Origin: a virus
Length of the DNA: 30,773 bases
IMG/VR virus record: IMGVR_UViG_3300027917_000127
Coordinates: 1 to 30,773 of that record
Reading direction: 5' to 3' (one strand)
The notes under the pieces are model-generated. The model had not been told where the DNA came from, did not search any database, and worked only from the letters and a program-made list of their open reading frames with translations. Positions 8,734 through 30,773 of this stretch are shown here, in pieces. The position numbers and the translations under genes were made by a program. Every line of letters starts with the position of its first letter. Position 1 is the stretch's first letter.

Positions 8734-9075
8734 TCACGAATACGAGACAGAATCTAACGCCCGTTCTACCAATGTATATACGCGAATCGTATTTCCCTCA
8801 GAATCCCACCAGTTATCTCTCACTACAATCTCGTATTGTTCCCCCGAAATGATTATGCGATTGCCTTCCAAGACATACTCAATATTATCTACATCAGGAT
8901 GAAATGTTACCTGATATCTCTTCCGGCGCCATACCCCAAAATCATGGTACTCCTGTTCCGGCCTCCGGTCTGGATGGATTGTCGTTACTAGCACTCGATA
9001 TTCTGTCCATGTCAGCGCTGGATCACCATACGCATCGACGCTTCCTTCTGTTTTATGTAGGACGCTCACCAACAT
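8734..9075 (-). CDS. Head-tail adaptor (head closure-like) protein
   Basis: A 113-residue protein with the features of phage head-tail joining proteins (H_T_join type): an N-terminal strand, a TWTEYRVLVTTIHPDRRPEQ region, a YQVTFHPDVD strand, a GNRIIISGEQYEIVVRD strand and a TIRVYTLVERA end. GTG 9084 is in frame, but the ribosome site AGGTGA covers it, so ATG 9075 is the likely start. It overlaps the end of the fibre gene by about 20 bases. Its place before the tail terminator agrees with a head-closure role. Confidence 0.75.
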   Translation of the reverse strand: MLVSVLHKTEGSVDAYGDPALTWTEYRVLVTTIHPDRRPEQEYHDFGVWRRKRYQVTFHPDVDNIEYVLEGNRIIISGEQYEIVVRDNWWDSEGNTIRVYTLVERALDSVSYS

Positions 9076-11602
9076 CTCTCTCACCTATATTTACTTTTGG
9101 AAGTACAATTGATGGTATTCGTGTATGAGCCGCGCCTCTCCTTACGGCAGGAATCTTAAATCGCACAAAGATAGCATCGACTGAGAAACTTTTTGATTTT
9201 GTTCCTGACTCGAATAGAATCGCGTCTACTGTAAATGTCTTTGTGATCCCTAACTGTTTCAAGTAGGCATCTGTGGTAAAGGTCTTTAATGCCCCTAATT
9301 GTTTTAGATAAGAATCTACTGTAAATGATTTTTCGGCCGCGAGTTGTTTCAAATACGCATCTGTTGTAAAGGTCTTTTCAATCCCTAATTGTTTTAAGTA
9401 GGCGTCCACCGTAAAGGTTTGTGTGACCTCCACTTGCTTGAATAGGGCATCCACAGTCATGCTCTTCTCTACTCCCAATTGCTTAAAGAACGCATCGACT
9501 GTAAAGGTCTTTAAGGTTTCACTTGTAACAAGAATTGCATCAACCGTAAAGGTCTTCTCAAACCCAAGTCCCTTTAACCACGCATCGACAGTAAATGTCT
9601 TCTCTGCTGCTAATTGCTTTAAATAGGCATCGACTGTCATGCTCTTTTCGATCCCGAGTTGTTTTAAGTACGCATCAACGGTCATCGATTTTTCGATTGC
9701 CACCTGTTTCAAGAACGCATCGACCGTCATAGTCTTCGGCTTTGCAAGTTGTTTCAGATAGGCATCTACCGTAAACGTCTTTTCCAAAGTATATATAAGG
9801 AACGCATCTACCGTAAACGTCTTTTCTCTACCCAACTGTTTTAATAGGGCATCTACTGTAAACGTTTTCTCCAACGCAATCGCATGTAAAAATGCATCAA
9901 CCGTTAAAGTCTTTTCTACCCCCAACTGTTTGAAGAACGCATCAACGGTGAGTGTCTTAATCCCCCGTAGTTTGATCCATGCATCTACCGTGAAGGTTTT
10001 TTCTATTCCTTCGCGTTTCAAATAGGCATCAACCGTGAGAGACTTCTCCACCCCTAATTGCTTAAGAAAGGCATCAACCGTCATGGTCTGTGTGACATTG
10101 AGTTGCTTCAAAAGCGCATCGACTGTATAAGTTTTTTCTACCCCAATTTGTTTTAAGTAGGCATCGACAGTCATCGTCTTTTCTAACCCAATGGCGTGTA
10201 AGAAGGCATCGACTGTAAAATCTTTCTCCAATCCCAATGCACGTAAATAGGCATCAACTGTGAATGTCTTTTCCAGTCCCAATGCCTTGAGATATCCATC
10301 AACTGTAAAGGTCTTCTCTACGGCTAACTGCTTGAAATACGCGTCGGCTGTGAGTGTTTTTTCAACTGCTACCTGTTTGAGATACCCATCAACTGTGAAT
10401 GTCTTTCCGACATTTGTTTGTTTTAAGTAAGCATCTACCGTGAAGGTTTTTGTTAGTGTAGTGGCTCCACCTGTTCCCGTTTCCATATGTCTATAAAGTA
10501 CATAATAGGTGCTTGTGCCATCAAAGCGAGAATAGGATAAAGCCGCCCACCCATTTCTTTGTTTTTTTTCAGAGGCAAAATACCTAACATATCCGGCACT
10601 ATATCCCTCTAATTGGCTCATCCCACTCCAAGAGCTTGCAGAATAATCATAAGTTTGGATATAAACATCCTCATAGCTACTTGAAAAATTATACCCCGCA
10701 ACATTGATAATATCATCAACCTCTCCCACCTCGGTTTTTAAAATATGGCAACCTGAGTTTCCCATATCCGCATCCGAACCATGATTAGGAAAACTACTAA
10801 ATGACTCGCCCAATGTGCTTGAGCGAGAAAAAACCGCCCCCGTATCATAGAGGTTATAGGTTCCATCCGCAAAAACCATGATATTAGTGCCAATACTCCC
10901 ATGCAAGCGCCCGCCCACGTTATTAGTGCCAAAAGAAAATCCCGTATCTGAATCAGAGCAGGTTTCCCAAGCGGGCGTGCCTGTATTATAATATTCTAAA
11001 GTGCTTGTTGAATAATTATACCGTTTGGATAGTCCTGTTCGGGCTGATCCCATAGCCGTTACAATATGGATATAATCCCCATCCCACACCACCGCCGAGG
11101 CGCGGCAATAATTGGTGGATCCAAAATCAAAGATTTCTATTTCTGATCCCCAATTAGCGCCTCCATCCTCTGAAACCATAATACTCATCGCTTTGGTATC
11201 GGGGGAAAACCCCACCACTATGCGCTCATTGGTATTATCATAATGTGCGGAAACATACCCAGTTGAAGCTATTAAAGCCCCTTGATCTGAAAAAGAAAGC
11301 GTACTTACAGGCGCCCGTTGTACGTGCAAATCGGCGCTCGAGTCTATATAAAAAACCCATATATACTCAATAGTGGAATATACACCAATGATCATGTACG
11401 CATTAACGATTGACTTAGTCCAATTGGCGGCGGATGCCACCGTAGTGGTGGAGAAAGAGGTAGGCTCAGCCGCATTGCCTTCATATAAGACTAGATTATC
11501 ACTTGCATCCACCGCAAGCACATAGGGGATATTGGAAGCATCCCGCACATGCGCCAAGGGATAAATATCATCGGTATCGCTTACCACCGTCACCGTTGCC
11601 AT
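9053..11602 (-). CDS. Large fibre protein: beta-propeller-like N-terminus plus 29 tandem 15-residue repeats
   Basis: An 849-residue protein. Residues about 1-380 look like a sialidase/BNR beta-propeller, with one clear Asp box (SEDGGANWGS) and repeating strand patterns. Residues about 385-825 are roughly 29 tandem repeats of 15 residues with consensus KTFTVDAYLKQLGVE; nearly every unit keeps T-V-D-A. The last about 25 residues are basic and different. There is no signal peptide. The ATG directly follows the TAG stop of the upstream gene in the same frame. A trimeric fibre shaft with a glycan-binding or hydrolysing head is the likeliest role. The 15-residue period recalls the triple beta-spiral of adenovirus and reovirus fibres, but this is inference. 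Confidence 0.85.
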   Translation of the reverse strand: MATVTVVSDTDDIYPLAHVRDASNIPYVLAVDASDNLVLYEGNAAEPTSFSTTTVASAANWTKSIVNAYMIIGVYSTIEYIWVFYIDSSADLHVQRAPVSTLSFSDQGALIASTGYVSAHYDNTNERIVVGFSPDTKAMSIMVSEDGGANWGSEIEIFDFGSTNYCRASAVVWDGDYIHIVTAMGSARTGLSKRYNYSTSTLEYYNTGTPAWETCSDSDTGFSFGTNNVGGRLHGSIGTNIMVFADGTYNLYDTGAVFSRSSTLGESFSSFPNHGSDADMGNSGCHILKTEVGEVDDIINVAGYNFSSSYEDVYIQTYDYSASSWSGMSQLEGYSAGYVRYFASEKKQRNGWAALSYSRFDGTSTYYVLYRHMETGTGGATTLTKTFTVDAYLKQTNVGKTFTVDGYLKQVAVEKTLTADAYFKQLAVEKTFTVDGYLKALGLEKTFTVDAYLRALGLEKDFTVDAFLHAIGLEKTMTVDAYLKQIGVEKTYTVDALLKQLNVTQTMTVDAFLKQLGVEKSLTVDAYLKREGIEKTFTVDAWIKLRGIKTLTVDAFFKQLGVEKTLTVDAFLHAIALEKTFTVDALLKQLGREKTFTVDAFLIYTLEKTFTVDAYLKQLAKPKTMTVDAFLKQVAIEKSMTVDAYLKQLGIEKSMTVDAYLKQLAAEKTFTVDAWLKGLGFEKTFTVDAILVTSETLKTFTVDAFFKQLGVEKSMTVDALFKQVEVTQTFTVDAYLKQLGIEKTFTTDAYLKQLAAEKSFTVDSYLKQLGALKTFTTDAYLKQLGITKTFTVDAILFESGTKSKSFSVDAIFVRFKIPAVRRGAAHTRIPSIVLPKVNIGERDVGERPT
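9150..10452 (-). repeat. Tandem 45-bp coding repeat array (about 29 units)
   Basis: Units of 45 bases encode the 15-residue motif KTFTVDAYLKQLGVE. The DNA units differ at many synonymous positions, for example in the codons for the T-V-D-A core, so protein sequence is kept while DNA has drifted. A few units are 14 residues long (ending LRGI and YTLE). The position opposite LKQ is variable (LRA, LHA, IKL, LVT). Confidence 0.92.
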
Positions 11603-15661: not shown

Positions 15662-15684
15662 TTTTTTGTCCCTCGAATTATCAT

Positions 15685-15720
15685 AAAAAAAAATAAAGGT
15701 AGCCCGCCTTACGGCGCTAC
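15685..15720 (-). terminator. Hairpin and T-tract after the decoration gene
   Basis: On the minus strand GTAGC-GCC, a GTAA loop, GGC, two unpaired G and GCTAC form an eight-pair hairpin (15,720-15,699), followed by CTTTATTTTTTTTT (to 15,685). The stop codon of the decoration gene lies in the 3' arm. A T-tract alone terminates in archaea and the hairpin would also suit bacteria. It could limit readthrough from the highly expressed capsid genes. Confidence 0.7.
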
Positions 15721-16713: not shown

Positions 16714-16826
16714 ATAAACACCTCCACTTATTAAGGTACACAGTACCAGAGGATTTTTTTTTCTAAATTAGAGTAGGAGGCCCGAAGGCCACGTCCTCAA
16801 AACATGCTCAAAAATTGAAAGCTAGA

Positions 16827-16835
16827 ATTTATATT
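16827..16835 (-). promoter_or_regulatory. Possible TATA promoter between major capsid and decoration genes
   Basis: Minus-strand AATATAAAT preceded by AAAGCCG resembles an archaeal BRE-TATA pair. It lies just past the capsid stop and about 120 bases before the decoration start. It is supported by pattern only. The 131-base gap also holds small inverted repeats at 16,734-16,746 (GGTAC arms) and 16,779-16,790 (GGCC arms). Confidence 0.35.
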
Positions 16836-16844
16836 CGGCTTTCA

Positions 16845-23119: not shown

Positions 23120-23279
23120 TCCGCGCCCCTACGCGTTTGGTATCCGCCTCCCTGTTATCCTAGGCCTCTCTTTCCCCAATCCGATTTCCCCTCGTACTTG
23201 TGTCGGGGGGGTATAACCGCGCGCTTGTATAGACCTCTATATATTTTCGGTGGAATATATACTCGCGCCCCCAACAAGC

Positions 23280-23288
23280 AAAAAAAAA
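23280..23288 (-). terminator. T-tract after the minus-strand zinc-ribbon gene
   Basis: A run of nine A on the plus strand is T9 on the transcript, starting three bases past the stop of the 46-residue gene. Archaeal RNA polymerase terminates at such tracts. It would separate this gene from the terminase operon about 190 bases further on. Confidence 0.55.
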
Positions 23289-23290
23289 GG

Positions 23291-23431
23291 TTACTCTTGG
23301 TAGTAGGGTTCTAATCCCTCAAAGCTCATGCAGTGGGGGCAATATAGCTTTCCACCATCGGGGACAAGTTCGCGCTCAGGGTTGTCAATTCTACCATCAC
23401 ATTTTTTGCAGTACCAAACTATTTGAACCAT
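23291..23431 (-). CDS. Small zinc-ribbon protein
   Basis: A 46-residue protein starting MVQIVWYCKKCDGRI, with CxxC at residues 8-11 and CPHC at 31-34, the layout of a minimal zinc ribbon. An archaeal-type promoter 35-42 bases upstream and a T-tract directly downstream make it a self-contained transcription unit between the divergent control region and the terminase operon. Zinc ribbons of this size in viruses often contact RNA polymerase or other proteins. A late-gene regulator is an attractive guess given its place, but nothing in the sequence proves it. Confidence 0.8.
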   Translation of the reverse strand: MVQIVWYCKKCDGRIDNPERELVPDGGKLYCPHCMSFEGLEPYYQE

Positions 23432-23463
23432 TTTGTTTCTCTCATATAATATTGCTCATGCAA

Positions 23464-23482
23464 AGTATTTAAATCTTTTGGT
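23464..23482 (-). promoter_or_regulatory. Leftward BRE-TATA promoter
   Basis: Minus-strand ACCAAAAGATTTAAATACT contains BRE-like CCAAAAGA directly before TATA box TTTAAATA (23,473-23,466). Initiation about 25 bases downstream gives a leader of roughly 12 bases before the zinc-ribbon ATG. The first 13 bases are identical to the rightward promoter at 23,813. Confidence 0.75.
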
Positions 23483-23506
23483 GCGCCCCTATACACTGTA
23501 TATACT

Positions 23507-23553
23507 CAGTATATATCGGCATACTGCGGCGTATATAATCTATACCGATATAT
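23507..23553. promoter_or_regulatory. Nested inverted repeats in the divergent control region
   Basis: CAGTAT at 23,507-23,512 is inverted as ATACTG at 23,521-23,526. ATATATCGG at 23,511-23,519 is inverted as CCGATATAT at 23,545-23,553. They lie just upstream of the leftward promoter and are good operator candidates for a dimeric regulator. No gene is seen in this stretch. Confidence 0.5.
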
Positions 23554-23608
23554 ATTGCGCTCCTCACAATATAACTCAATCATACAAATAGAGCGCGAAT
23601 ATATACCC

Positions 23609-23706
23609 CCTCAAAGATCAATACCTCCTACTCAAAAATGAGTATAGCCCTATCAAAAGTGAGTATATTAACTCAAAAATAAGTAGTCTTACCCATAAGG
23701 GAGTAT
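23609..23706. repeat. Five imperfect direct repeats spaced 20-21 bp
   Basis: Copies resembling ACTCAAAAATGAGTATA begin near 23,609, 23,630, 23,651, 23,671 and 23,691. The second copy is itself palindromic (ACTCA-AAAA-TGAGT). The spacing equals two helical turns, so bound proteins would line up on one face of the DNA. They sit midway between the divergent promoters and may be operators or origin iterons. Confidence 0.6.
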
Positions 23707-23711
23707 AAAGC

Positions 23712-23769
23712 GCGCTGATATATACCAAGATAGCGCGGTATATACTCCATAACCGCGCGGTATATACCA
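23712..23769. repeat. Three repeats of GCGCGGTATATACC, 20-22 bp apart
   Basis: Copies begin near 23,712, 23,733 and 23,755, with a related copy (GCGCGAATATATACC) near 23,593 on the other side of the five direct repeats. Each joins a GCGC core to an alternating TATATA tract. They lie upstream of the rightward promoter. They may be a second operator class or easily melted origin elements. Confidence 0.5.
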
Positions 23770-23812: not shown

Positions 23813-23830
23813 ACCAAAAGATTTATAAGC
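23813..23830 (+). promoter_or_regulatory. Rightward BRE-TATA promoter
   Basis: ACCAAAAGATTTATAAGC has BRE-like CCAAAAGA directly before TATA box TTTATAAG. Initiation about 25 bases downstream falls near 23,850. This leaves a leader of about 265 bases before the first rightward gene, and that leader is strongly structured. Confidence 0.72.
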
Positions 23831-23835
23831 CTAAA

Positions 23836-24110
23836 CTGCGCAGTATTATTTGAGAAAGCCAAAAGGGGCGGAAAGGGGCAGCAACCTCTTCCCTTGGTGC
23901 AGCGAATAGCTGTAAACTTTTAATTGTGGGAAATCCACGAAATCCGGCGATACGGTCTTGATCTCTTAGATCTGGAGTCCAACCGAATAGAGGCGACTCT
24001 AAGCGTACCCTACAAGATCCCAATGGATAGTAGGGATTACCCACCTCCCGAAAGATCGACAGGGAGCGCTCTTATTAGCCGCAAATAGTGAGTAGAAACC
24101 AAAAGGGTGA
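23836..24110 (+). ncRNA. Structured leader RNA or independent structured RNA
   Basis: No convincing gene lies here. The plus strand can form a chain of hairpins: 23,898-23,914 (CAGC/GCTG with GAATA loop), 23,924-23,940 (GTGG/CCAC with GAAAT loop), 23,944-23,955 (CCG/CGG), 23,960-23,972 (GATCT/AGATC), 23,973-24,001 (TGGAGTC with GACTCTA) and 24,008-24,035 (CCCTAC/GTAGGG enclosing ATCC/GGAT). It starts right after the rightward promoter and ends at the ribosome site of the first gene. I checked it by eye against tRNA, RNase P, SRP and group I intron signatures and found no match. It could be a cis-regulator, a processed small RNA or a decoy. Confidence 0.5.
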
Positions 24111-24114
24111 TAAT

Positions 24115-24744
24115 ATGGATATGTCAAATAAGAAATCTGAAATCATCGAAGCAATCTTAAACGTCGCTGAGAAAGACACACAAGAGCAAAAAGAACTAGA
24201 AAAACTCACAAAAGAACAATTATTGGATATCCTCAGTACATATGAGGAAATCCCACAAGACGACAACCCACAAGACGATAAACCACAAGACGACAAAGAA
24301 ACAACCCCCGCAACCAAAACTTTACGAATTGGTGACAAAGAAATTAACTTAGAAACAGGAGAAACAAAAACAGTACAGAAAGACATAGAACCGACTTCAA
24401 CCGATAAAAGCGGTTACATTCAGGCTTTGCCCACAAATAAGCTAGGATTCACTCCACTGATGAAGCTAGTCGGGCACGGGCTCTTTTTCTCCCCAAAAGA
24501 GTACCCCCACCAACAGCAACAGCTCGCAAAGATATACGAGCTGTTCTTGGACTTAACAGCGTACCCCGAACCATTTAACCGACCATTTTCTCAGCCACTC
24601 CTCCCTGTAGTCTTAAATCCAGAATACATCAATTTTGTTGCAGAAAATGTCGGGTTTATTATCTTAACCGCAAGATATCTCAGAGATTCAAAAGATTTCA
24701 GAAAGGACTTAATAGAACTTCTTAAAACCCACCAACCCCAATAA
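24115..24744 (+). CDS. First rightward (early) protein, unknown
   Basis: A 209-residue protein from ATG 24,115, with GGGTGAT four bases upstream; an in-frame GTG at 24,088 lacks such a site. The acidic, helical N-terminus (SEIIEAILNVAEK, KLTKEQLLDILSTYEEI) is followed by three Pro-Gln-Asp-Asp repeats at residues 47-61, a linker, and a more hydrophobic C-terminal domain (LGFTPLMKLVGHGLFFSPKE, INFVAENVGFIILTARYLRD). No known family is recognised. As the first gene after the structured leader it is probably made early and abundantly. It has no cysteines or clear nucleic-acid motif. Confidence 0.85.
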   Translation: MDMSNKKSEIIEAILNVAEKDTQEQKELEKLTKEQLLDILSTYEEIPQDDNPQDDKPQDDKETTPATKTLRIGDKEINLETGETKTVQKDIEPTSTDKSGYIQALPTNKLGFTPLMKLVGHGLFFSPKEYPHQQQQLAKIYELFLDLTAYPEPFNRPFSQPLLPVVLNPEYINFVAENVGFIILTARYLRDSKDFRKDLIELLKTHQPQ

Positions 24745-24750
24745 TAACTT

Positions 24751-24801
24751 AGTTCGGTGCAATCCCGAACACCTCCCAAACTTTTTTCTATTATGGAGGT
24801 G
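24751..24801 (+). promoter_or_regulatory. Intergenic RNA element 1: hairpin, U-tract and hidden ribosome site
   Basis: GTTCGG (24,752-24,757) pairs with CCGAAC (24,765-24,770). Next comes CACCTCC (24,770-24,776), fully complementary to the ribosome site GGAGGTG at 24,795-24,801. Between them lies CAAAC and a T6 run (24,782-24,787). The RNA could end at the U-tract or hide the site that starts the 62-residue gene. It shares CCTCCCAAACTTTT with element 3. Confidence 0.6.
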
Positions 24802-24808
24802 AAAAGCA

Positions 24809-24997
24809 TTGAGGCAAAAAGTTATTATAACTGGAATACTGAGTAAAGACCTTTTTTGGTATAGCTTCACCCTCAAAGTGGAGCAAGAAGGGTTTGAGGG
24901 ACAGCAAAGCAATAGCGGAGTTATTGACTGTTACCCTATGACTCAAAGAGGGATTTCTCAATATCTTCTTGAAGAAGATATAGAGAGATTACTCTAA
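24809..24997 (+). CDS. Small unknown protein under element 1
   Basis: A 62-residue protein starting at TTG 24,809, eight bases after a perfect GGAGGTGA ribosome site; no ATG is better placed. The sequence (ITGILSKDLFWYSFTLKVEQ, VIDCYPMTQRGISQYLLEED) suggests a small alpha-beta domain. It has one cysteine and no membrane span. No family is recognised. The ribosome site can be masked by the intergenic element in front of it. Confidence 0.72.
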   Translation: MRQKVIITGILSKDLFWYSFTLKVEQEGFEGQQSNSGVIDCYPMTQRGISQYLLEEDIERLL

Positions 24998-25000
24998 TTT

Positions 25001-25049
25001 GGAGGTGCGAAATCCTCCGACCTCCTTTCTTTATTTCTAATATGGAGGT
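25001..25049 (+). promoter_or_regulatory. Intergenic RNA element 2: competing hairpins around the ribosome site
   Basis: GGAGGT at 25,001-25,006 and GGAGGT at 25,044-25,049 can both pair with the single ACCTCC at 25,020-25,025. Pairing with the first makes a hairpin followed by a U-rich stretch (25,026-25,037), like a terminator. Pairing with the second hides the ribosome site of the next gene. The two states exclude each other, as in an attenuator or switch. Confidence 0.6.
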
Positions 25050-25056
25050 TGATAAA

Positions 25057-25365
25057 ATGTATAAGATCAACACAACAAAAGGGCATAGACCACACAAAGA
25101 ACAACCACACATAATAATACACTATAAACCCTTACACCATAAACTCCAAGATATGACAGAAGAGCAGAAAGAAGAACTTAATACAGCGCGAAAAATGTTT
25201 ATTATGTTCTTAAGAGTCATAGACATAGAGTATAACGACTTAAAACGGATGGACAAACACATTATAACGTACCATATGGACAAACAAGATTTTGAACTAG
25301 AGCAAGCGCGTTTATGGTCTTATCGGTATTTGTTTATGATGGAGGGCCTCCCCTCCCTCTCATAA
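25057..25365 (+). CDS. Small helical protein, unknown
   Basis: A 102-residue protein from ATG 25,057, with GGAGGTTGAT seven bases upstream. An in-frame ATG at 25,042 overlaps that site and is unlikely. It has a His-rich, basic N-terminal third (GHRPHKEQPHIIIHYKPLHH), then helical segments (TEEQKEELNTARKMFIMFLR, KQDFELEQARLWSYRYLFMM). The His cluster could bind metal, but this is only suggestive. It is the last gene before a T-tract terminator and the GC-rich repeat region. Confidence 0.75.
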   Translation: MYKINTTKGHRPHKEQPHIIIHYKPLHHKLQDMTEEQKEELNTARKMFIMFLRVIDIEYNDLKRMDKHIITYHMDKQDFELEQARLWSYRYLFMMEGLPSLS

Positions 25366-25391
25366 CCCTCTCTTTTTTTTTATTTTTTTTC
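25341..25391 (+). terminator. Strong T-tract terminator of the first early operon
   Basis: GGAGG-G-CCTCC (25,341-25,351) lies in the end of the coding region. It is followed by CCCTCTC and a near-continuous T-tract at 25,373-25,390 broken by a single A. This is a typical archaeal oligo-T terminator. Confidence 0.75.
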
Positions 25392-25393
25392 TT

Positions 25394-25830
25394 AGGCGCG
25401 CCTGAGTCGCGGCCGCGTCTTAGTCTTAGTCATACGTATAAATCCCCAGCGCGCCTAAGCCGCGCTCACGTCTGTGGAGCGCTGAGCGATGGGGGGCGCG
25501 CTTGCGGTGCGGGCACGTCTGTGGCGCGGGCCTTCTCCAAGACAAAGGCCGCGCCTGAGACGCAACCGCACGTCTATCATAGCTGAGGTTGCGCAGAACA
25601 CGCGCGTTCTCGCACCCCTCTCTCCTATACACGCGAAAAATCACACGTCTCTTCTGCGCTGTCTCAGCCCTATTTCTGTGGATATGCGCGCGCGAGTCCG
25701 CTGCCTCACACGTCTTTCTCGGGGCGCGCTTAAGACGCGCTTGCGATTGTCGCGCGCCGCGCCTGAAGAAAAAGGAACGAGGAGCCGCACGTCTAGTCAC
25801 ACGTCTAAAAGCGCGCTTAAGACGCGCTTG
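25394..25830. repeat. GC-rich degenerate repeat field, gene-free
   Basis: The stretch 25,366-26,084 has no convincing gene; long open frames there are Arg-rich artefacts of the repeats. Units of about 28 bases join GCGCGCCTGAG-N-CGCG to CACGTCT. Four align well near 25,395, 25,450, 25,495 and 25,548, and looser ones lie near 25,685 and 25,757. CACGTCT occurs seven times (25,467; 25,514; 25,569; 25,644; 25,709; 25,788; 25,800). GCGCGCTTAAGACGCGCTTG occurs twice, near 25,724 and 25,811. Spacing is irregular, so it is not a CRISPR array. A TATA-like TATAAAT at 25,437-25,443 might transcribe it. Confidence 0.65.
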
Positions 25831-25978
25831 AGATACGCCCATGACGGCGACACAGGGGCGCGGAAAATTAAATATGTTGTATAGGTATCTAGGGGGCGCG
25901 AACAGAAGGTGCGATAGGAAAGGCCACCGCACGGCATAGTGAGAGCATAGGATTAGGCGCGGGTATCCGAGCTTTTCC

Positions 25979-25987
25979 TTTATATAG
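25979..25987 (+). promoter_or_regulatory. TATA promoter of the second rightward operon
   Basis: CTTTATATAGGCC, with a TTTATATA core after a pyrimidine-rich stretch, is a strong archaeal TATA box. Initiation near 26,008 gives a leader of about 75 bases before the 39-residue gene. A second candidate, TAGTATAT, lies at 26,014-26,020 inside the duplicated leader described below. Confidence 0.55.
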
Positions 25988-26010
25988 GCCCATACGTTAG
26001 ACCTTACCGC

Positions 26011-26084
26011 GCTAGTATATCCGATAAATTTTCGGGTCTAATTGAGAATCAAACGCCCCACCGACCTCACAGGAGCGCGATAAT
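26011..26084 (+). promoter_or_regulatory. Duplicated leader, copy 1
   Basis: Contains a TATA-like tract, AAATTTTCGG (26,026-26,035) and a CTCACAGGAGCGCG segment just before the 39-residue gene. The order and spacing match the leader before the gene at 27,718 (59 bases from AAATTTTCGG to the segment end in both). CCGA/TCGG arms around AAATTT can pair. It is probably a shared promoter-leader unit. Confidence 0.5.
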
Positions 26085-26204
26085 ATGAAAGAATATAAAT
26101 TTGAGGTAAAGGTAACATCCCCTTACCCAATAGACAGTGAGTTTATTCTGGACGCGCTACGGCGTATCGCAGATGAAGAGACATACGAAGTTAAAGAAGT
26201 ATAG
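26085..26204 (+). CDS. 39-residue protein, unknown
   Basis: ATG 26,085 follows AGGAG by nine bases. The peptide opens KEYKFEVKVTSPYPIDSEFI and ends ADEETYEVKEV, reading like a small beta-alpha-beta unit with strongly coding-like alternation. It ends in TAG, and ten codons later in the same frame the next gene starts at its own ATG with its own ribosome site. No family is recognised. Confidence 0.65.
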   Translation: MKEYKFEVKVTSPYPIDSEFILDALRRIADEETYEVKEV

Positions 26205-26231
26205 GAGCGCGGTAATATAGGAGGAATAAGG

Positions 26232-26543
26232 ATGTATCAAAAAGAAAAAACGCTAGAACCCACAAAGAAACATTATACCTTCTTTGTGAGGGTAGGAGTG
26301 AACAGGGCCCCTTGGATATTCACCGCAGAGGAATATCCCGCATTCCTTGACCAGTACGACGAGTCCCACAAGGAGATTATTCCTCGGCATGTGTACCTCG
26401 GAATTCCAGAACTTAAACAAATGATAAAGCACATCCTCAGTCTCAAAGCGCAGGGGCGCGCGGATGAGGAGATTGAAATTAAACTTGTGCGGAAAGTTAC
26501 AACTATCGCCGATGAAATATGGGATATCGCCCCAGAAGAATAG
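26232..26543 (+). CDS. 103-residue early protein, unknown
   Basis: ATG 26,232 follows AGGAGG by seven bases. The N-terminal half contains KKHYTFFVRVGVNRAPWIFT and EEYPAFLDQYDESHKEIIPR, followed by helical ELKQMIKHILSLKAQGRADE and a C-terminal helix VTTIADEIWDIAPEE. It is charged and soluble, with no cysteine. It is followed by intergenic RNA element 3. No known family is recognised. Confidence 0.8.
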   Translation: MYQKEKTLEPTKKHYTFFVRVGVNRAPWIFTAEEYPAFLDQYDESHKEIIPRHVYLGIPELKQMIKHILSLKAQGRADEEIEIKLVRKVTTIADEIWDIAPEE

Positions 26544-26582
26544 GGCCTCGGCCCCCCTCCCAAACTTTTGTTTGAAAGGAGG
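26543..26582 (+). promoter_or_regulatory. Intergenic RNA element 3: hairpin, U-tract and hidden ribosome site
   Basis: GGGCC-TC-GGCCC (26,543-26,554) is followed by CCTCC (26,556-26,560), which pairs with the ribosome site GGAGG (26,578-26,582). Inner AAAC and GTTT add four more pairs around TTTT. It shares CCTCCCAAACTTTT with element 1 and controls access to the small membrane protein gene. Confidence 0.6.
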
Positions 26583-26589
26583 AACAAAG

Positions 26590-26736
26590 ATGAATACCCT
26601 AAGAGATCTTATCCTCATATACCTACTCAACGCGATTGTAGATGTAAAATGGTATCATATCATTTTCCTTCTCATCGCGATCCTTGTAGATAACCAAGAA
26701 ACAATAGAGAGAATTGTGAAAAAAGATGACGCATGA
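26590..26736 (+). CDS. Small single-span membrane protein
   Basis: A 48-residue protein from ATG 26,590, seven bases after GGAGG. Residues about 5-35 are hydrophobic (LILIYLLNAIVDVKWYHIIF then LLIAILVD), enough for one membrane helix, possibly two short ones. The tail is charged (NQETIERIVKKDDA). Small membrane proteins in early viral operons may be holin-like or modify the host membrane; which applies cannot be told here. Its end overlaps the next gene by 11 bases. Confidence 0.7.
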   Translation: MNTLRDLILIYLLNAIVDVKWYHIIFLLIAILVDNQETIERIVKKDDA

Positions 26737-30550: not shown

Positions 30551-30773
30551 TTGTCTTATTGTAATGATTATTATGTCCTGCCGTCGCGCTACACGCTACG
30601 GCGTATGGACAACATCCCTATCCCCCCTGTAAGTAGCTACCCTCCTATGCCCTTGGGAGGGTGGCCTATCACCCTTATCCCCGCGCTAGAACACGAACTC
30701 CTTAGCGCACTGGCGCAGCGCGGATGTATATTTGACAAATTTCATTCATATAATGGAGAACGCCCCCCCCCCC
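30551..30773 (+). CDS. Partial ORF running off the right edge
   Basis: TTG 30,551 (with AAGGATGA nine bases upstream) opens a frame with no stop to the edge; ATG 30,605 is an alternative start. The product is Pro- and Tyr-rich (SYCNDYYVLPSRYTLRRMDN, IPIPPVSSYPPMPLGGWPIT), then LIPALEHELLSALAQRGCIF. The last codons fall in a run of C and may be unreliable. No family is recognised. Confidence 0.55.
   Translation, partial: MSYCNDYYVLPSRYTLRRMDNIPIPPVSSYPPMPLGGWPITLIPALEHELLSALAQRGCIFDKFHSYNGERPPP
30763..30773. other. Terminal poly-C run
   Basis: The last 11 bases are C. Such a run at the very end is likely where assembly or sequencing stopped, though a real homopolymer cannot be excluded. Confidence 0.6.

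Follow-up and report, generated by a model that had tools for sequence, protein, structure and literature searches.

Three intergenic gaps of this uncultured virus, here called E1, E2 and E3, each carry a CCTCC segment that is predicted to pair with the GGAGG ribosome site (SD) of the following gene. The sequence pattern is real and modestly unusual. From the predicted folds we propose, with a probability of about one half, that E1, E2 and the looser E3 act in cis as intergenic elements that would lower the expression of the next gene in the rightward early transcript.

Layout of the three gaps

The window analysed is the whole virus record of 30,773 bases. The terminase, portal, capsid and tape measure genes run leftward from about 23.4 kb down, while genes of unknown function run rightward beginning at about 24.1 kb, and each of the three gaps sits between two rightward open reading frames (ORFs). 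The gaps are 46–64 nt long and follow the same order: stop codon, hairpin, CCTCC, a U-containing stretch and the GGAGG of the next gene. Counted between their first bases, CCTCC and GGAGG are 23 nt apart in E1, 23 nt in E2 and 22 nt in E3. The parts, with the basis for each assignment where it was recorded, are as follows.

24745-24808, + strand: E1 gap, between the 24115-24744 ORF and the TTG-start 24809-24997 ORF (sequence, ORFs)
24752-24770, + strand: E1 post-stop hairpin, GTTCGG-TGCAATC-CCGAAC (folds)
24771-24776, + strand: E1 anti-SD strand ACCTCC, paired with 24795-24800 in the minimum-energy fold of the gap
24777-24794, + strand: E1 18-nt loop with a T6 tract, a possible archaeal terminator U-tract (sequence, T-tract scan)
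24795-24800, + strand: E1 SD, GGAGGT, of the 24809 gene, 9 nt upstream of the TTG start
24998-25056, + strand: E2 gap, between the 24809-24997 and 25057-25365 ORFs (sequence, ORFs)
25001-25018, + strand: E2 post-stop hairpin, GGAGG-TGCGAAAT-CCTCC (folds)
25020-25025, + strand: E2 anti-SD strand ACCTCC, paired with 25044-25049
25026-25043, + strand: E2 18-nt U-rich loop TTTCTTTATTTCTAATAT, without a run of four T (sequence, T-tract scan)
25044-25049, + strand: E2 SD, GGAGGT, of the 25057 gene
26544-26589, + strand: E3 gap, preceding the 26590 gene
26543-26554, + strand: E3 post-stop hairpin, GGGC-CTCG-GCCC, its first G within the TAG stop (folds)
26556-26577, + strand: E3 anti-SD CCTCC with a CAAAC/GTTTG inner stem and an AAA bulge (folds); CCTCCCAAACTTTT is common with E1
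26578-26582, + strand: E3 SD, GGAGG, of the 26590 gene

Folding and accessibility of the ribosome sites

In the minimum-energy folds of all three gaps, the post-stop hairpin forms and CCTCC is paired to the GGAGG that follows it. A comparison of folds with shuffled gaps had been suggested in the initial annotation, and the tight gap segments do fold better than dinucleotide shuffles, at z of about −2.6 to −3.2: −3.03 for E1, −2.63 and −3.21 for two segments of E2, and −2.82 and −3.04 for E3. A longer E1 context (24740-24815) gave a z of only −1.40 against dinucleotide shuffles. When the SD was held fixed and the rest shuffled, the fold energies remained low, with p of about 0.003 (E1), 0.007 (E2) and 0.04 (E3). 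Pairing of the SD as such was about as frequent in the SD-fixed shuffles of the same gaps (p 0.19–0.72). Since the SD pairs about as often in shuffled pyrimidine-rich gaps, much of the CCTCC/GGAGG complementarity arises from composition alone, and because the gaps are rich in C and U, some pairing with GGAGG comes easily.

The probability that the SD is paired was 0.97–1.0 at 37°C in local context for all three elements. Their SDs rank 2, 6 and 7 of 43 genes by inaccessibility at this temperature, ranks that are somewhat inflated because the elements had been picked for their SD-pairing property. The suggestion that a local helix hides the ribosome site is thus supported both by folding and by rank against the virus's other genes. 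On heating to 80°C, the predicted pairing of the SD remains higher than 0.75 in E1 and E3, while in E2 it drops to 0.36. Pairing of the SDs with 16S rRNA was computed at −10.9 to −14.7 kcal/mol, against a helix-opening cost of 5.7–7.9 kcal/mol; since the ribosomal pairing is stronger than the cost of opening the helix, repression may be mild.

Similarity among the elements and recurrence in the genome

The three gaps had been described as sharing one design. This applies to E1 and E2, which have a common layout of hairpin, anti-SD, 18-nt loop and SD with a helix of 6–7 bp, but not to E3, whose geometry differs: it folds as a tetraloop hairpin followed by a helix that contains the CAAAC/GUUUG pair and an AAA bulge, leaving no open U-rich loop. 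The E1 and E2 loops are alike at 11/18 positions, for which composition suffices (p 0.09); base composition would hardly give the nine loop bases common to E1 and E3 (p 4e-5). All three elements together have only CCTCC and GGAGG in common. E1 and E2 thus have a single architecture, to which E3 is more loosely related while having sequence in common with E1. A reading of the E1/E2 stem differences as compensatory change was rejected, as the hairpins are not in register without an indel.

The 14-base sequence reported as common to E1 and E3, CCTCCCAAACTTTT, was indeed found exactly twice, at 24772 (E1) and 26556 (E3), with no near-matches elsewhere in the record. The pattern CCTCC-N12-24-GGAGG occurs in the whole record only in E1, E2 and E3; the reversed pattern, run as a control, matched once on each strand. 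In 80 other viral loci, CCTCC was present 10–35 nt upstream of 12/503 GGAGG-type sites; here it lies upstream of the SD in three of about seven strong-SD genes. The recurrence of CCTCC/GGAGG within 1.8 kb exceeds this background, by a comparison that the choice of elements inflates in the same way as the accessibility ranks.

A possible fourth, looser element lies on the − strand in a 131-base gap after the capsid gene (16714-16844), where a GGCC-UUCG-GGCC hairpin has TCC directly 3′, so that its last bases and the TCC together read CCTCC; a GGAGGTG site follows at about 55 nt.

Search for relatives

No Rfam family reached its gathering score in the window, and no close relative usable for covariation came out of five protein scans, for which the queries were the early proteins of 62 and 103 aa, the terminase and the capsid protein. 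The terminase alignment comprised 80 loci at 23–32% identity, too distant for covariation. Four exact matches to CCTCCCAAACTTTT-N-GGAGG in other viruses were considered as a family and rejected as unrelated, as were five stretches matching GGTGCRA-N-ACCTCC-N-GGAGGT, all of them without the structure. Among the listed matches to CCTCC-N8-32-TATGGAGGTGA in other viruses (80 loci), the 18-nt spacing was not enriched (3 of about 80), and none of these loci held the module twice except for one overlapping pair. The initial view of a family of small viral RNA switches is therefore not borne out: there was no Rfam match, no related virus carrying the module, and no indication of a ligand or of a second equilibrium state. 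Separately, in three unrelated viral contigs (L111, L156 and L161) a TATGGAGGTGA ribosome site is buried in a long perfect hairpin.

The best sub-threshold Rfam match was the permuted tmRNA (RF04321), which E1 resembles in having a 7-nt T-loop-like hairpin stacked on a helix. It was rejected, since it scored 19.9 bits where the gathering score is 47 (E 0.19, chance level) and E1 has no CCA and no tag ORF. A more general tRNA-like reading, in which a 5-bp hairpin (loop UGCRA) and a 7-bp helix of E1 and E2 would correspond to a permuted T-arm and acceptor, was likewise set aside, the Rfam score being at chance level and E3 not fitting.

Transcription signals and host

A pair of BRE/TATA-like sequences (ACCAAAAGATTTAWAW) occurs exactly, in inverted orientation, at two divergent operon starts.

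23813-23828, + strand: ACCAAAAGATTTATAA, BRE/TATA-like, located upstream of the operon that contains E1 and E2 and likely a rightward promoter region (exact match with its inverted partner)
23467-23482, − strand: ACCAAAAGATTTAAAT, inverted partner of ACCAAAAGATTTATAA (exact match)
25369-25395, + strand: long T-tract after the 25365 stop, where the operon with E1 and E2 likely ends

Both members, which we take to resemble archaeal BRE/TATA promoters, belong to a 55-nt imperfect inverted repeat (23428-23482 and 23813-23867), and they likely serve the two main operons as paired promoters. The virus proteins gave only distant matches to bacterial tailed phages, and no tRNAs were found in the window. 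From its sequence, the virus quite probably has an archaeal host.

T-rich windows on the sense strand fall within gaps in 42 of 51 cases, though gaps make up 6.8% of the sequence, and two T9 tracts follow stop codons without an adjacent hairpin (23273-23288 and 25369-25395). Among the three elements, E1 has one U6 tract, its T run beginning 11 nt after the hairpin; E3 has a single tract of only four U; and E2 has no run of four U and holds a candidate for a bacterial-type terminator, a GC hairpin followed by a U-rich stretch. Archaeal termination uses U-tracts without a strict hairpin requirement, and binding of aCPSF1 in Methanococcus maripaludis needs a minimum of two U4-tracts (PMC8716108). 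In M. maripaludis, internal-operon terminators lower the expression of downstream genes in 38% of operons (PMC10450193). Given the archaeal-type promoter-like pair and the post-stop T-tracts, weak internal-operon termination of the archaeal kind may take place at the U-stretches of E1 and E3; its strength is doubtful, with a single U4 run in each of these two and none in E2. Attenuation, as initially proposed, is possible, but its likely route would be an archaeal-type U-tract terminator and not a bacterial hairpin switch, and E2 is without the U4 run that this route requires.

Several further features of the window were noted. On the − strand at 15662-15711, before the 15661 gene, a stop codon lies in a hairpin loop (GTAGCGCC-GTAA-GGCGGGCTAC) followed by CCTTTATTTTTTTTT, a terminator-like arrangement; the tract beside the hairpin at 15680-15697 would suit a bacterium too. 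Boxes of TATATACC/TATATACT cluster in both orientations at 23499-23768, which holds 8/14 of the window's copies, with 1.7 expected in the whole window. The 719 bases at 25366-26084 are without convincing genes and GCGCGC-rich, and contain five or six imperfect copies of a 20–33 base unit. Within 340 bases of this region CACGTCT occurs seven times, always on the + strand; the window as a whole has 8 where 2.6 would be expected. The region is a candidate replication origin or protein-binding array. An 849-aa protein encoded at 9053-11602 (− strand) has many copies of a KTFTVDAYLKQL-like repeat and no match among annotated phages. The record terminates in a run of 12 C (30762-30773), possibly an assembly artefact.

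Competing structures in E2

The 5′ arm of the E2 post-stop hairpin is a second SD-like GGAGGT and an alternative partner for 25020-25025. The claim that the E2 anti-site can pair with either GGAGGT copy is correct in that both pairings are possible, but the two states are far from balanced. With ViennaRNA energies, the SD-hiding structure has −18.6 kcal/mol, the best SD-open structure, which is the terminator-like hairpin, −11.5 kcal/mol, and hairpin 1 alone −8.7 kcal/mol. As long as the SD has not been transcribed, the terminator-like fold is the more stable one (up to −11.5 versus −8.7 kcal/mol); once it has, the SD-hiding state wins. With about 7 kcal/mol in favour of the hidden state, E2 could be a two-state switch only co-transcriptionally, not at equilibrium. 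A true attenuator, with the SD-hiding helix in competition with a terminator-like hairpin (GGAGGT/ACCUCC and the U-rich stretch after it), would draw on this order of folding. It appears improbable given the energy gap between the final states, the lack of any second GGAGG copy in E1 or E3, and the sigma-70 and terminator scans, in which promoters were little above chance.

Alternative explanations

The gaps might be only 3′-end signals of the upstream gene, hairpin plus U-tract, with the CCUCC/GGAGG complementarity a by-product of a pyrimidine-rich spacer beside a purine-rich SD. We regard this as a possibility of clearly less than even odds. It is consistent with the near-equal SD pairing in SD-fixed shuffles and with T-tracts marking gaps throughout the genome, and in four loci of other viruses (L106, L112, L162 and L171) a terminator-like hairpin, a T-tract and GGAGGTGA occur together with CCTCC inside the 3′ arm of the hairpin. 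In E1 and E3, however, CCUCC lies outside the hairpin, and the spacing of 22–23 nt in all three gaps, the folding energies below those of shuffles, and the scarcity of U4 runs (none in E2, just one in E3) also speak against it.

Two regulatory alternatives appear quite unlikely. In translational coupling, the helix would shut the next gene unless the upstream gene is translated; the elements do start right after the stop codon, with the post-stop hairpin where a terminating ribosome would sit. Termination-reinitiation in Haloferax volcanii and Escherichia coli falls to near zero past about 20–38 nt (PMC10666635). Coupling is therefore unlikely, because the gaps are longer than the distance over which reinitiation works in these organisms, and a ribosome at the stop would reach hairpin 1 but not the SD helix. 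Alternatively, a viral protein could bind the E1/E3 sequence (CCUCCCAAACUUUU) or the paired helices and repress the three genes together. The improbable sharing of nine loop bases by E1 and E3 would fit such a site, as would the recurrent start-site elements of this kind in mycobacteriophages (SAS/ESAS, PMC3203893), but CAAACTTTT is absent from E2 and has only two copies, and no RNA-binding protein was identified.

Proposed function and comparison with known systems

In the reading we prefer, that of cis elements lowering expression of the next gene, the SD is computed to pair with CCUCC 22–23 nt upstream, with a separate hairpin between the stop codon and the SD helix and the U-containing stretch held in the loop. 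In full-length mRNA the SD would then be closed to the ribosome, giving low translation of the next gene, and opening of the helix by breathing, heat, protein or cleavage of the loop would restore it. With less confidence, the U-stretch might also serve as a weak internal-operon terminator or a site of 3′-end processing and so reduce the number of transcripts extending into the next gene; partial termination within the loop would lower output just as closing of the SD does. A more specific version, for an archaeal tailed virus, is a long shot: one U-stretch would be both transcript-end signal and loop of the SD/anti-SD helix, readthrough transcripts would be translationally shut, and cleavage of the loop by the nuclease that the host uses for termination could make the SD accessible.

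The elements are plausibly an orphan instance of a well-known kind, the SD-sequestering leader hairpins, which include RNA thermometers and phage translational operators and likewise use an upstream anti-SD strand and a local helix to close the ribosome site. In all three elements the SD of the next gene is paired both in the minimum-energy fold and in the ensemble. They differ from these leaders in being intergenic within an operon, in occurring three times in 1.8 kb, and in having a further hairpin after the stop and a loop that contains a U-stretch. The SAS/ESAS of Cluster K mycobacteriophages are also short repeated elements at the SD of several genes in one phage; half have an inverted repeat just upstream, and a role in translation initiation has been proposed, with the mechanism open (PMC3203893). 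SAS is, however, one conserved 13-bp sequence, GGGATAGGAGCCC, with many copies in several genomes, whereas here there are three copies with little sequence conservation and no relatives, and GGGATAGGAGCCC was absent from the upstream sequences of 47 gene starts. Archaeal internal-operon terminators (ioTTS, U-tract/aCPSF1; PMC10450193, PMC8716108) likewise place a U-rich stretch in an intra-operon gap after the stop, but are not known to be enclosed by an SD/anti-SD helix, and here E1 and E3 have a single U4+ tract and E2 none.

A literature search of limited reach returned no report of such elements in archaeal viruses, where they seem little described. As candidates, E1, E2 and E3 form a clean set of three sites suited to mutational test. 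If the proposal is correct, they would represent RNA-level dosing of early genes in a virus probably infecting archaea, with a termination signal and the hiding of a ribosome site joined in one short gap.
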